A stretch of 64,000 bases of DNA, taken from assembly GCA_026027325.1 (NCBI GenBank), contig JAMSLZ010000006.1, positions 434,001 to 498,000 of the forward strand. Direction: 5' to 3'. Positions within the stretch are counted from its first letter, which is position 1; each line of letters opens with the position of its first letter. The notes under the pieces are model-generated. The model made no database searches and had not been told where the DNA came from. It saw only the letters and a list, made by a program, of their open reading frames with translations. Position numbers and translations under genes: made by a program. Below are positions 49,818 to 57,126 of the stretch, piece by piece. This stretch comes from Actinomucor elegans. Its lineage: Eukaryota > Mucoromycota > Mucoromycetes > Mucorales > Mucoraceae.

Positions 49818-51384
49818 CTAATAAGCATTGCCAGCTAATAAATGCTGTGCTTTAGCCAAAACACTTTCTATTTGGCTATTCAAATGATCTTGATTGGTTA
49901 AATACGTTTGAAGTCTTTCCAGTAATTCAACTTGCTCTTTAAGTGATAAATTATTGATCACTAGGGCCAAGATAGTACCAACAGACATGTTATACGTCTA
50001 TTTACGCATAATTAATACTGTATCCCTTCGTTCTATAAGGTTGATCTTACCTTGATGAAACTCTGATAATACATATAAGCGAATAAACCCATTAAGAATT
50101 GACAATCCATCCTATCAGTTAATCCACCGTGACCAGGAATACTGTGTCCAAAATCTTTGATCTTGAATGCACGTTTAACTGCGCTAGCAAAGAATCCACC
50201 AAAAGGTGCAATCAAAGAAGCAAAGCAAGCCATTACAATAGCGTGCAATTGAACAGGTGCAATCCAAACTTCTGTAACATCAATCAAACACTATAGTAGA
50301 TATGCTCAGCATCTTTTTTTTTTTTTTTTTTTTTTTTTGCATGTATACATCTCGATCACTTACTGTATATTTGATAATATAACGGATCAAGGAAGGAAGA
50401 GCCCATGGAGAAGCTGTAAACACAGGATTCTTTGGGTTACAAGAAATATCTGACCAAGCAGTAGCGCCAAGATCATGCACAGGACAAGTCATGTAATCAA
50501 ACCGCATCAATATAGTGGTAACTAAGAAACCAAAGACAAGTGTAAAGATGAATCCACCAACAAAGCCTTCTACTGTCTTTTTAGGGCTTAATGTAAGCAA
50601 AGGCGTTTTTCCCCAAAAGAATCCACAGACATAGGCAAAGATATCATTGCAAACCACTAAGGAGACAGGTAAAACGAACCAAATCATGCCTTCTAGTATG
50701 TTGTCCACAATGAAATGGGCTTGGAACACGATTAGAAAGATGGCCATATGAGTCCAACCAAACTGCGACATTTGCTGCCTATATTGACCTTTTTTCAAGT
50801 TCATTACAAAGAAGACAAAGCCTAAATACTAAGGTAAGTACACTGCCTAGCTCCATTATGTCTAACTTACCAATCACGTAGAGCATAAAACTAATAAATC
50901 GATGGTGAGTAGCGAACGGTAATAAGAAAGCGTCCACCATCACAATTTCTTTAAAGTAGTAAATGATCGATTCACCATATAAAAAATATTCTGTAGCGAT
51001 TAAAAAATACCTGTTTTATCAACTGTTTAGGCTTAAATAGCATAATATTTTGCATAGTGCTGCTTACCAGCTCATTGTTTTGAACCAACTCAAGTTACCT
51101 TTTGCAGAATAATAAGCAATGGAAATAACTTCTTTATAAACCAACACGGTGATAATCAAAACCATAACAATAGACCAAACATAACCAGAAGCAAGGACTA
51201 GGAAAAAGGCTGCGATCATAATGAGTGTTGTAATGGTGCGGATCCACCAGTTTTGCCACTTTTTACTAGATGCTTCTGCAGCTAAAAGAACTGTGGGTGG
51301 TTCTTCTGCTGTACTGCTATCTTTGACAGTGGCTTTGTGGTGATCTCTCGCTTTTGTTGAAGTTGTTCTATGTTTAACTCGCAT
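49818..51384 (-). CDS. CDS1: Phosphatidate cytidylyltransferase (CDP-DAG synthase)
   Basis: Exons complement(49818-49997, 50051-50290, 50364-50821, 50871-51010, 51068-51384), 444 aa. The family signature is complete: [20 protein letters not shown] followed by GLTDRMD. Other conserved pieces are [18 protein letters not shown] and [12 protein letters not shown]. Six to eight hydrophobic segments make it an integral ER-membrane enzyme. By family knowledge it converts phosphatidic acid and CTP to CDP-diacylglycerol, the precursor of phosphatidylinositol and phosphatidylserine. The N-terminus [17 protein letters not shown] is basic and soluble; an in-frame ATG at 51444 would add 20 residues. Intron 50291-50363 contains 25 consecutive T. 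Confidence 0.95.
50314..50338 (+). repeat. Poly-T tract (25 T) inside a CDS1 intron
   Basis: Read directly; poly-A on the coding strand, within intron 50291-50363. Confidence 0.9.
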
Positions 51385-52774
51385 ATTATAGTATATGTCA
51401 AAGAAAGAAACACTTGGTGAATGAATGACGAAACACTGACCCAAGAAAATATGCCGACAATAAGTTAAATCCTTATACTTTTAAGATGACTTTGAATTTC
51501 AATAATACAAATCTGGGATAGTTCTTTGGTAATAATAAAGCTCCCATTTTTGAGGCTTGATTCTTGATACAAATAATGTAGTTCATTACATTTAAAGGTA
51601 CACTTGAGTATATATGTTAGCAGTTCCCTTTATTTAGTAAACTTGACTTGCGCTCTTATAGATTAACTAGCCGGATATCAATATTCGCTCAAAAATAATT
51701 CGATCTTTCAGATAAACCGGCATAATACTTTCCATTATTCAATGGCCACAGTAACCTTAAAGGAAATCTGTTAATAGAGTTTATGCTATTCTCTGAAATT
51801 TCACAATATAATAATCGAGATAAAGATTGAGTAGACATACTTGGCGTGATTTGACGAATCAAATGTTCGCAGTATCGTAAAATGTACATCTCATTATCCA
51901 ATGAAAAGATTTGCATAAGCAAAAACGCGAGTAGCGGAGCCTTTTTTCTGTTTTATCTCGTTGATTTGCCTGAAAGGTTGATTTAAGATCCGATACAAGC
52001 TATACGAATGTTTTTTTGGAGATATAAAAGTAGTTTTAAAGGAATAGGTGAATGACACAGGACTATTTTCACTATGATCAAACACATTTGTGTATTATTT
52101 TTTTTTGTATTTTTTCTTTAAGAAATTCAAGAGTTATTAATTAAATAAGACCATTTTGGGTACTAAAACTCAATTAAAGCATGACTCTATTTGTGAACAC
52201 ACAGTGATACTTTATTTAAATCAATCGAAGCGCAATAAATTTATGCATGGACTTTGTTAGTAGAAATTATTCATACAGGAGATTTTTCACTGTCTTAAAG
52301 TCAATAAATAAATAGATTCGCAATGAACCTTTGGGTATTTTTGAACATTATACTCCGATACCCAATAATAATAACACATTTTAGATGCCGACTTAAAAGC
52401 CTTAGGTATAATTGATTACCAAACAAGGACTCAATCACCAACAAATAAGCAAGTACAAATCCTGGACGCGTCAAATATCCGAGGCTTGTGCCGATAGCAG
52501 GTAATGCGGGTTATCGAGATCTAGTATTGTTTCACCAATAACCTGTTTCAGGTCTACAAAGATGGTAATTCATGAACAAAGATGTTGAAGGAACAATAAT
52601 ACTTTAAAGTTAGAGTTTTAATAGTAAAGTTTCATCAAACGAAAAAAATAAAGGCCCCGAAAGTGACTGCCACCTAGTGATTCGCCGCTTCGTTGGGCAG
52701 AAAGAGCGCGCTTTGGTGGCTTCATGTCAAATTTCCCTTTTCTCTTTTTCTATTCACTTTTCTTGTAGGTCGAA
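51385..52774. other. Divergent spacer CDS1 / DNA methyltransferase
   Basis: 1.4 kb between the two divergent starts. Small ORFs at 51689-52085 lack motifs. TTGTAG at 52763-52768, just before the methyltransferase ATG, could be the acceptor of a leader intron, but no donor was settled. Confidence 0.45.
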
Positions 52775-55700
52775 ATGGCGACCAAAGTTGAAATAAAACT
52801 CGAGTCTACACCTTGTTCGCCCATACCTAGTAATAAGAAGAGTCTCCTTACCAGTGAACAAGATGTTCAAGTGCAAGCCATAGTCCAAATTCTAGGAAAT
52901 ATACTGCTTACAGTTAAGAGAGATATAATTGACAAAAAAGGTGATTTGTTATTCCAATGGTACATACAGTTATTCATCTTTTTTTTTGTTTTTTTTTGTT
53001 TACATAGCTAGTTATGCACCTTCTGCGGCTGCTGTCACCTTTTTGCTCCGCAGGATGGACTCGTCAGCAGAAGAAACGTACAGTCTAATGACTGGTTTCA
53101 TGACAGTTTATCTATGCTTTATACAGGTTGTACTAAAACAAGACTTTGAGGAATACATGCTTCTGTTTCATTTTCGTGATTCATTATTGAATCAACCTTT
53201 TTATGCATTAAACCATTGCATATTGATCGAATTGCATAAACGCTTAGATACAATAGACTCTAGTTTTATACTAGCCAATATGGACGCTATTTTTTCTAAA
53301 TTCTATACATTGCATTTCTTGGAAACCTCAGCTCAAAAGCACCAAAAGGATCACGGCCAATTTTACACACCTCAATCAGTTATTCAGTTCATGTGGGATA
53401 AATGCGCTACTACCTTCAACCTAGTTCAACATCTTCAGCACCACACTGTCATGCCACGCGTCTTTGATCCTTGCTTAGGCATAGGTTCTTTTCTGTGTGA
53501 ATTTCTGACGCGTTTCACCAAAGCATGTCGATTCACTGTATGGAATGACGCGACTCAGTTGATTAATTTGCTTACATGTCATATACCGGATCATGTGTGG
53601 GGTGTAGAAATTGATCCTTTTGCTTATCAACTGTGCAAAATGAACATGATGATGCATATGTTTCCCCTCTATCAACGCCTGAAAGAGCTTGGTGTTTCAT
53701 TATCTCCAGGTTCTATTCATCGTCTTAGGCTATTCTGTAACGATTCACTCAAGTTACAGGTTCACACTAATCCCTTTTGGAAAGCCGATAGCGATGTGGA
53801 TCGGTTTGAACAGGATTGTTTAGCTTTATTGCGTGATGCATCACAATTAAAGTTTGATTTCATAGTCACGAACCCACCTTACATGATCAGGAAGACGGGA
53901 TTCATTACGCAGCCTGACCCAACCATATACGATGAAGCAAAACTAGGCGGGAGAGGTACACAAGCTTATCTCTATTTTATGTGGATCGCACTGCAAAGAT
54001 GCGATGATAACCAAGGTCAAGTTTGTCTGATTACGCCCAGTCAATGGACTGTGTTAGAGTTTGCACAGCATTTGAGGTATGTTTTTATAGACTTGATCTC
54101 TAGTGTACTTATTTTATTATAGAGAGTGGATCTGGGCAAATTGCAAACTATTAGATATGTACGAATTCGAGCCTTACAAAGTATGGCCCAAAGTACAAAC
54201 CGATTCACTCATTTTTCGCGTTTGTAAACGATCTACTACACTGCTCAACTCAAACCATACGCTCTACTTAAGGCATACTTCCAGACGCATCACCTTAACC
54301 GATCTGTTGCAAACTTACCAAGACTTTAAACCAGAAAAGCACAACCATGATCCTGAACTTAAATACAGAAAAACACCTCTTACAGATGCTAATCTTATCC
54401 TCACTTCAAAACACGCCTCTTTTTCTTTCATTTTACCAACATCTTCCTGTCTTGATCAGCTTAATGCAATTACGAGTCATCTTCCGCGACTTTGTGATGG
54501 TGAATTACATAAATCAAACACTGCTTCCGATAAAACACCTTTAGTATGGAATCGAGGGCCCAATACCAATCCTGTCTATTCGCTGGTCGTACGTACAAGA
54601 TGGGCGATAGAAACCTTTGGCCAGAAAACATGTGCTCGCTGGCTCAAGCCTTGCTTTTACTGGAATGGTAAAACCATGACATCTGCAACAGGTGGAGGAA
54701 AAGAGGGGGACTTTTGGAAATCAAGAGATCCTTTGAGACTGAGCAAAAAAGAAACGTCGGCTTCAGAAGCTTATTGGCCTTATTGCAATCTTGATATACA
54801 ACAACCTACTGTGCCATACTACTCCATGATCACTGTCAATCGCGAAGACGCAGAAGTATTGCAAAAAGAATACAATCAACAAGGTCCTGCTTCACCTATC
54901 GCTGCTCTTTACAATTACTTGCGCCAGGCGCGCGCTGCTTTACAGGCAGGCAAACAAGATACCACTGAAATAGCCTACTGCCAATACAATAAATGCGGTA
55001 CAGACGTACCTGTCAAGATTGTACATCCCATCAATTGCGGTTATTTCACTAGATCGCAGCCCCGCTGTCGGTTCTTTGTCGATACCACTGAAATGGCTGT
55101 TACAAATCAATGCATCTACTTTACAATCAAGCCTGAATGCGCTTGGCAAGATTCCAATTACTTTTGCGGCCTGCTCAATAGCGCACTATTGCAGTTCTTC
55201 ATCAAATCCCATTGCTGCTATGACCAACAAGGCCGTATGCGGTTTTTTGGTCGTTTGATGGCTGATATCCCATTTGCTCCTCCTCCTTCACAGGCATTCA
55301 TGTTTCAATTGGCTACTTTTGTACAAGGCATTACCGTGACTCGTACTTGGCTCTACACCTTTGTGCGCTATGCAGTGCAAGGCCAACGCTTGATGGAGCG
55401 CGTCAGGAATGGTGAATGGCATTTAACACCAAGCGAAAAGCAAATATTGCACCAATTCAAACCACCCGCCGATTGGATATTTCAACCAGATACAAGCCTA
55501 TCAACATGCCAAACCCCTCAACAACTACAGTGGATCCATGAATTTATAACACAGCACTATAATACACCCAGTGAAAATGTAGAGTATGTCTTTGTAGTAC
55601 TGCTCAAGATTGCATCTTTGTTTCAATTGGCCATTGATCAAATGGTATATCATGTCTATGGTATTCCTACGTCGCTTCAGCTGGAACTGGAGCAAGAACT

Positions 55701-55819
55701 GAATCTGAAAAGCTTGAGAAGTGAATGGGATTCGTATACTAATCTTCAAATTGAATCTAAAGCAGATACGATAGAATGGTATCAGCGTATTTTTAGCATT
55801 GCCATTTCATTTACTACTA

Positions 55820-55854
<35 letters not shown>

Positions 55855-55860
55855 ATCTAA
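52775..55860 (+). CDS. Bacterial type IIG/Eco57I-like N6-adenine DNA methyltransferase
   Basis: Exons 52775-52959, 53012-54076 and 54123-55860, 995 aa, introns 52 and 46 nt. After a helical N-terminal region of about 170 residues come the N6-adenine methyltransferase motifs in gamma-class order: motif X-like GQFYTPQSVIQFM, SAM motif I VFDPCLGIGSFLCEFL, acidic VWGVEIDPFAYQLCKMNM and catalytic motif IV FDFIVTNPPYM, then QVCLITPSQWTVLEFAQHLR. The C-terminal half resembles the target-recognition region of Eco57I/TaqI-type enzymes (NCGYFTRSQPRCRFFVD, FCGLLNSALLQFFIKS, GRLMADIPFAPPP). No PD-(D/E)xK nuclease is seen at the N-terminus, so it would modify but not cut DNA. Spliceosomal introns and fungal neighbours argue for nuclear residence. 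RNA or protein as substrate cannot be excluded. Confidence 0.87.
55813..55854 (+). repeat. Coding trinucleotide repeat (ACT)8(GCT)6
   Basis: It encodes Thr8-Ala6 at the extreme C-terminus of the methyltransferase, one codon before the stop. It is probably a slippage-prone, non-essential tail. Confidence 0.95.
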
Positions 55861-55962: not shown

Positions 55963-57126
55963 TTATGAATAAGAAGGTGGTGGGGGCTGTACAGTACGGT
56001 CAACATAAGTTAAATTTTCACCTTGACCATCCGCGTTTTGTAAAGGCATTTCGGCATGGAACAACATATCGTCCGTATGTCCACCATAGGCAGGCGGAGG
56101 AGCTATTGATCCTTGTCGAAGCGCAAATGCCGCTTCTCTTTGATTTGCTATAAAGAAAGCTCATTAACATTCCCATACTCTTTCTTTTAATGAACACTAC
56201 CTGGTGAAAATAGAAAGTCTTCGTTTCCAAAATTGACAGAAACATGGCAAGGACCTATAGATCCAAGGATAGGATACAACGGGTACTTGAATCCAATTGA
56301 GGCTTTACCGAGATTTTGTCCATTACGTGTAAAGAACACCGTACCACTTTGACACAAGTAACCTACACCTATCACATCGCCTTCTTTAATACCAGGCCCG
56401 TAAGGTCTACCGCAGGTCGGGTCACTAGCAAACACAGAACCTGTATTTGAATGGTACGCAATGGAATGTCGATGCCAACCTAATTGCAATGTTAGATTAT
56501 ATTACTTTTTATTTTTTTGTATTCTAAATACACACCAGGCAATCTCCACCGAGGATAGGGACGAGTTGCTAATCCAATAGCTAATCTATCTTGATCGTTC
56601 AATTGCAATACCTTGACTTCCCAATAACTAAACTCTTGCACAGGTACTGGGAGATTTGTCATGATACTGCCCTGACCTTGACAAAAGACAATCGAAAAAG
56701 ACTCGTCCATGACGGCTGCATTGCTTTCTTCCTCTGCATCAGAAGTGGTAGGTGTTTCTATGAATCGCCAAGCCAGCACGCCTTTGGCTATCACTTCTGA
56801 GTTCTTTGTTACATCCATATATTGGTTGGTATTAGCTGGGTATTTAGTTTGCCATTCTATACTCATGATAAGTATGTATTTTACACAACTCATCAGTGAT
56901 AGTTACCCGCTACTGCTTGCAAGGTCTGATTATCTATAGTTTCTAATGGGGTGGCTATCGATCGAAGAGGCTGCCAATCGTGATTATTCGTTTGTGTAGA
57001 TGCTTCGTGATTCTTCTTCCTTAATTTCTTTATCACGCGTATACCAAAACAAGCAAACAGCGAAAATAAGACAATAAGACATATAATGATAACGGCATAG
57101 AAGCCTTCACCTCCAGCTGCTGGCAT
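55963..57126 (-). CDS. SPRY-domain Rsp5 adaptor (Ssh4/Ear1-like)
   Basis: Exons complement(55963-56147, 56201-56479, 56536-56856, 56907-57126), 334 aa. One N-terminal membrane segment (GFYAVIIICLIVLFSLFACF) is followed by a basic stop-transfer RVIKKLRKK. A SPRY domain follows (about residues 125-270: FSYWEVKVLQLNDQDRLAIG, WHRHSIAYHSNTGSVF, GDVIGVGYLCQSGTVFFTRN, YPILGSIGPCHVSVNFG). The C-terminal tail carries two PY motifs, PPAY (APPPAYGG) and PPSY (PPPPSYS at the end). This is exactly the layout of Ssh4/Ear1, endosomal/vacuolar adaptors whose PPxY motifs recruit the Nedd4-type ligase Rsp5 to ubiquitinate membrane cargo for vacuolar degradation. It converges on the methyltransferase gene, 102 bp between stops. 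Confidence 0.92.

Follow-up and report, generated by a model that had tools for sequence, protein, structure and literature searches.

A bacterial-type adenine DNA methyltransferase gene of Actinomucor elegans, very probably the orthologue of Mucor MetB

Introduction

An intron-bearing gene in the fungus Actinomucor elegans whose product resembles a bacterial type II adenine DNA methyltransferase raises the question of what kind of enzyme it is and how it came to reside in a fungal chromosome. The gene lies on the plus strand, from an ATG at 52775 to a TAA stop whose last base is 55860, in a stretch of 64,000 nucleotides (the window; G000:C24:434001-498000) on a contig of 2.6 megabases (Mb) in a genome of 36.5 Mb and 27 contigs. 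An earlier note, made from the letters of the window, had proposed a nuclear (or organellar) modification enzyme acquired from bacteria by ancient transfer, possibly a second writer of N6-methyladenine (6mA) with its own recognition site. Here we show the gene, its family, the single copy found in the genome and the fold of the homologue from Mucor circinelloides. Very probably the gene is orthologous to MetB of Mucor and encodes a solitary gamma-class DNA adenine N6-methyltransferase of the Eco57I/TaqI/type IIG/CamA-like kind, with no nuclease found. The enzyme is long established in early-diverging fungi, and in A. elegans it is presumably a nuclear monomer with the activity and site of its Mucor counterpart.

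The sections of Lax et al. 2024 (PMC11258239) drawn on here name a Mucor PF02384 protein MetB and report, on the evidence of deletion, high-performance liquid chromatography/mass spectrometry and PacBio data, that its deletion lowers 6mA by 70-75%, mainly asymmetric 6mA, with loss of the AAA6mACA motif, and that the mutant shows heightened sensitivity to hydroxyurea. The same sections describe a fungal MetB clade separate from bacteria, propose two transfers, an ancient one followed by losses and a second in Glomeromycota, and favour endosymbionts as the source (PMC11258239). A 2026 review restates the MetB findings in its cited portion (PMC13297926), and PMC12695648, in the part used, deals with MT-A70 writers and has no further bearing on this gene. 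As MetB was described and knocked out in Mucor in 2024, the A. elegans gene is an expected relative and not a discovery; given those results, the earlier proposal was correct in outline without being novel. Our analysis confirms a real, correctly recognised gene, already explained. MetB, the asymmetric 6mA writer of bacterial type in early-diverging fungi, can be picked out by reading sequence blind.

Motif order and domain content

Translation mapping places the motifs named in the earlier note where it had put them and in gamma-class order. In the 990-residue form of the product these are motif X, GQFYTP, at residue 172 (53355..53372); the S-adenosylmethionine (AdoMet)-binding motif I, DPCLGIGSF, at residue 209 (53466..53492); VEIDPF at residue 255; and the catalytic motif IV, NPPY, at residue 344 (53871..53882). 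With a target-recognition domain following at approximately 54409..55290, the order X, I, IV, recognition domain is that of the gamma-class N6-adenine DNA methyltransferases as described in the cited part of PMC8187626. Pfam searches, made with a 995-residue form, gave matches above cut-off to Eco57I (PF07669, 1e-21) and N6_Mtase (PF02384, 2.2e-16; 60.5 bits against a cut-off of 20.4), in keeping with the proposed Eco57I/TaqI/IIG architecture, while TaqI_C and MmeI_Mtase (0.0067) fell below. The top NCBIfam match, to the Alw26I/Eco31I family, scored 51 bits, far under its cut-off of 353.5. No nuclease family stood among the four Pfam matches at E <= 1 or the six NCBIfam matches, an absence that is not proof, and MT-A70 (PF05063) was not among the Pfam matches at E <= 1, the catalytic motif being NPPY and not DPPW. 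For two homologues, P0006 (M. circinelloides) and P0046, PADLOC gave partial matches to Mad2, to type I, II and IIG methyltransferases and to PglX, the highest among the 25 of 37 matches listed being Mad2 (60.7 bits for P0006), and PHROGs gave phrog_2713 (78.3 bits for P0006).

The C-terminal half, which the earlier note had called specificity-like, does match recognition domains: through TaqI_C, through a profile-profile match between the family and its bacterial relatives, and through a Foldseek fold match of the P0006 model to CamA. The limits given above are those of the counterpart of P0006 residues 521-800. The family shows constraint in both halves of the protein, the frame is open and motifs X, I and IV are intact, all of which argues against the likeliest of the alternatives, an orthologue with altered or lost activity in the A. 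elegans lineage; activity in this species is a prediction, and we judge such a change very improbable. Still less probable is a methyltransferase of the same fold whose substrate is RNA or protein, a reading to which NCBIfam lends weak PrmC/HemK cross-matches, far under their cut-offs, but the recognition half is related to DNA-specificity domains and, in the sections cited, deletion in Mucor alters DNA 6mA (PMC11258239).

A motif census covered 146 family members by identifier (P0001-P0114 and P0126-P0157), fragments included. NPPY occurs in 123 of them, and 22 of the 23 members without it are at most 751 residues long; GQ[FY][YF]TP occurs in 118. Motif I reads DPC[ML]GxG in 76 members and DPC[ML]GxS in 48 (for example P0057, P0059 and P0074, all DPCLGVSTF), the latter having a serine in place of the AdoMet loop's second glycine. 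The named DPC[ML]GxS members are Mortierellomycota, and many exceed 1300 residues.

Homologues, phylogeny and copy number

Among 5.8 billion proteins searched, 95 homologues, some of them fragments, passed E <= 1e-3, far beyond chance. The closest named ones share 60-65% identity over 90-99% of the query, P0006 being 62% identical over 988 aligned positions. All those named to species are early-diverging fungi and the remainder are metagenome entries; the named ones fall in Mucorales, Umbelopsis, Jimgerdemannia, Calcarisporiella, Glomeromycotina, Mortierellomycota and Basidiobolus. The gene is not absent from related fungal genomes, and a recent bacterial contaminant or insertion, which the bacterial type of the family might suggest, is almost certainly wrong, since the gene has two introns, sits on a 2.6-Mb contig beside neighbours with CTP_transf_1 and SPRY domains, has a local G+C that is towards the top of the range for the window but within it, has no close bacterial relative in the searches made and, decisively, has homologues in several fungal groups that mostly track taxonomy.

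The tree, for which 71 rows were supplied and 70 kept (P0121 was dropped as too gappy), holds 46 fungal homologues, the A. elegans protein and 23 others; 18 rows fill less than half of the columns, and the 12 named among these are all non-fungal. The A. elegans protein falls in a set of seven rows (support 98/83) with Blakeslea, Mucor saturninus, Pilaira, Parasitella, M. circinelloides and Mucor velutinosus, which sits within a set of ten (100/97). Glomeromycotina (nine rows, 100/100), Mortierellomycota (seven, 100/100) and Gongronella (four, 100/98) each form a single group. In 36% of bootstrap trees the non-fungal rows stood together on one side, and long branches meet. The tree supports a position within Mucorales for the A. 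elegans protein but does not formally support one origin for the fungal rows.

Scans of the genome found a single locus each for PF07669 and PF02384, P0006 as query brought up the two main exons of this gene and nothing else, and the gene is the sole family member found in the A. elegans genome. Three MT-A70 matches lie at separate loci, C25:1708794-1709231 (L002), C5:516334-516702 (L003) and C21:3124861-3125067 (L004), which by eye, and uncertainly, resemble Mta1 (DPPW), METTL4 and Mta9. The product carries the N6_Mtase domain and groups with the homologues from Mucor and other early-diverging fungi, as expected of MetB; as the one family member found, nested with the Mucor homologues, it fits the second 6mA writer with its own site that had been proposed and that the cited sections on Mucor MetB describe (PMC11258239).

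Several points weigh against this assignment. P0006 is probably MetB or a near-copy, an identification made from domain, phylum spread and single copy and not from an accession. The CamA match concerns the homologue's model and came from a second look at the Foldseek list, the TaqI_C match (PF12950, 1.4e-4) lies below the Pfam cut-off, and a simple pattern search for nuclear and organellar signals found no basic cluster in the A. elegans protein. Support for the branch between fungi and bacteria is low (83/60), with one of the fungal rows, Calcarisporiella P0043, placed on the bacterial side. Lastly, methylation by MetB is known from Mucor, and the same activity and site are predicted for A. 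elegans. A KR-x-R cluster, a possible nuclear signal, is present near the N terminus of homologues such as P0006, P0008, P0018 and P0034.

Gene model and neighbourhood

The three-exon, 995-residue product of the earlier note, with introns 52960-53011 and 54077-54122, was reproduced by splice-site enumeration, which gives other open models too. We judged the joint of exons 1 and 2 by alignment with 14 homologues, 10 of which have residues on both of its sides: the extra residues of the 995-residue form are absent in nine, and the tenth, P0019, carries a longer segment at this point that does not resemble them. An alternative intron 1 at 52941..53007 (GTGATT...ACATAG, 67 nucleotides) drops these residues, and because they are wanting in homologues we prefer the resulting 990-residue model; the three exons stand and the length is probably five residues shorter. 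Exon 1 would then span 52775..52940 (to 52959 in the longer model), as placed by the ATG, splice enumeration, the homologue alignment and a checked translation. Exon 2 (53008..54076; enumeration, Pfam and translation) encodes the N-terminal portion and the greater part of the methyltransferase domain, intron 2 (54077..54122; GTATGT...TTATAG, 46 nucleotides) comes from splice enumeration, and exon 3 (54123..55860; enumeration and translation) encodes the end of the methyltransferase domain, the target-recognition half, the C-terminal part and the TAA stop. The protein ends in a run of threonines and then one of alanines, encoded at 55813-55854 by ACT and GCT-type triplet repeats.

Six neighbouring minus-strand open reading frames were checked by Pfam. 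Two match CTP_transf_1 (50280-50828 and, below cut-off, 51064-51480), one matches SPRY (56187-56501), three have no Pfam match, and no restriction endonuclease was found among the six.

Bacterial origin and the search for a donor

A profile of 26 fungal sequences passed 143 proteins; among the 120 listed, 109 scored at least 357 bits, and 11, lying outside the fungal block, scored 52-85 bits. With a profile of the catalytic part 55 proteins passed, all listed, 44 at 85 bits or more (short pieces included) and 11 at 36-47 bits. Most of the weak matches outside the fungal block are metagenome proteins, which we take to be prokaryotic. The best match outside the block among those listed, P0115 (a metagenome protein of 1035 residues, with a sub-threshold HSDR_N_2 match), has 24% identity over 276 catalytic-domain columns, and a genome-contig scan for bacterial relatives found four loci that align with portions of the catalytic domain at 24-32% identity. 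The gap in bit score and the 24% identity of P0115 place the fungal family far from its prokaryotic relatives, with the donor not in sight: no close one emerged from the genome-contig scan or the two profile searches (120 of 143 and 55 of 55 matches listed). The ancient bacterial transfer proposed earlier is upheld in so far as the enzyme is old, of bacterial type and at home in early-diverging fungi, while a donor was not identified in these searches, which are neutral on an endosymbiont source, neither supporting nor excluding it. A viral origin was also tried and rejected: a scan of viral contigs, made with the alignment of fungal sequences, found no relative, and four stretches fitting a pattern (two peptide patterns only) were not confirmed.

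Conservation of the recognition domain

We compared recognition-domain with catalytic-domain identity, as the difference between the two for each pair of proteins, in bins of catalytic identity; pairs are not independent. Fungal pairs came from 56 of 63 alignment rows (three partial rows dropped, four Gongronella rows counted apart, the A. elegans protein not included), and the bacterial type IIG-like control, small and uneven, from 22 of 32 loci (L012 and L013 among them) plus seven proteins, the other ten loci having no open frame above 450 residues with PPY or PPF. At 35-40, 40-45, 45-50, 50-55 and 55-65% catalytic identity the fungal differences were +4.9 (n=29), +2.8 (315), +2.0 (368), +1.0 (347) and -0.7 (288) points. 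The bacterial values in the same bins were -10.4 (n=30, range -21 to +5), -11.2 (15, -26 to +4), -11.3 (1), none and -3.8 (8), a total of 54 pairs in four bins, some of them without a drop. Pairs involving a Gongronella paralogue gave -2.6 (n=44), -4.2 (136), -9.1 (52) and -10.8 (4) points.

We read this pattern of conservation, set against a small control, as specificity that may have stayed constant in the fungal family but become looser in Gongronella. More tentatively, and with odds that we rate somewhat short of even, the recognition domain may have been near-fixed since the early-diverging fungi split, and one ancestral methylation site may therefore be common to fungi as distant as Mucor, Rhizophagus and Mortierella; a fast-changing enzyme of the defence type would have become a constant epigenetic writer, freed again in the four paralogues of Gongronella, where new sites may have arisen. 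A frozen recognition domain predicts one common motif across fungal phyla, with Gongronella supplying natural test variants.

Gongronella butleri carries four divergent MetB paralogues (P0056, P0072, P0075 and P0107) in one species, with a recognition domain that diverges faster than the catalytic domain. P0056, P0075 and P0107 come from contigs of 933,292 bases, and P0056 and P0075 retain NPPY with the MIRKTG behind it altered.

Proposed mechanism and comparison with known systems

The A. elegans enzyme would most likely act as a nuclear monomer with no partner nuclease. Motifs X and I would let its catalytic domain bind AdoMet, the target-recognition domain in the C-terminal half would read a short, non-palindromic, A-rich site, and the target adenine would be flipped out for NPPY to methylate it on one strand. 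A one-strand mark at a non-palindromic site needs fresh deposition after replication, as the cited portion of PMC13297926 states; after each replication one of the two daughter duplexes would lack the mark and be methylated afresh.

Among the closest known systems are the type IIB/IIG/IIL/BREX adenine methyltransferases (BsaXI, DrdV, MmeI and BrxX/PglX), type I M subunits, BseCI and TaqI. Restriction enzymes among these systems carry a nuclease, whereas none was found in the A. elegans protein. The MT-A70 writers (Mta1/AMT1, METTL4) are likewise fungal adenine methyltransferases, but belong to a different family, at three other loci in the genome. Mucor MetB shares the N6_Mtase family, the early-diverging-fungal clade and a genome that also holds MT-A70 genes; it differs in species, and activity and the AAA6mACA motif are known for Mucor and predicted for A. 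elegans. CamA, the orphan adenine methyltransferase of Clostridioides difficile (PMC8187626, in the part cited), is matched at 18% identity from residue 157 of the P0006 model onwards, and the N-terminal helices of that model are therefore without a CamA counterpart. Its recognition site, as given there, differs from the AAA6mACA of MetB (PMC8187626), and as a well-studied, solved enzyme it could serve as a template for understanding site recognition by MetB.
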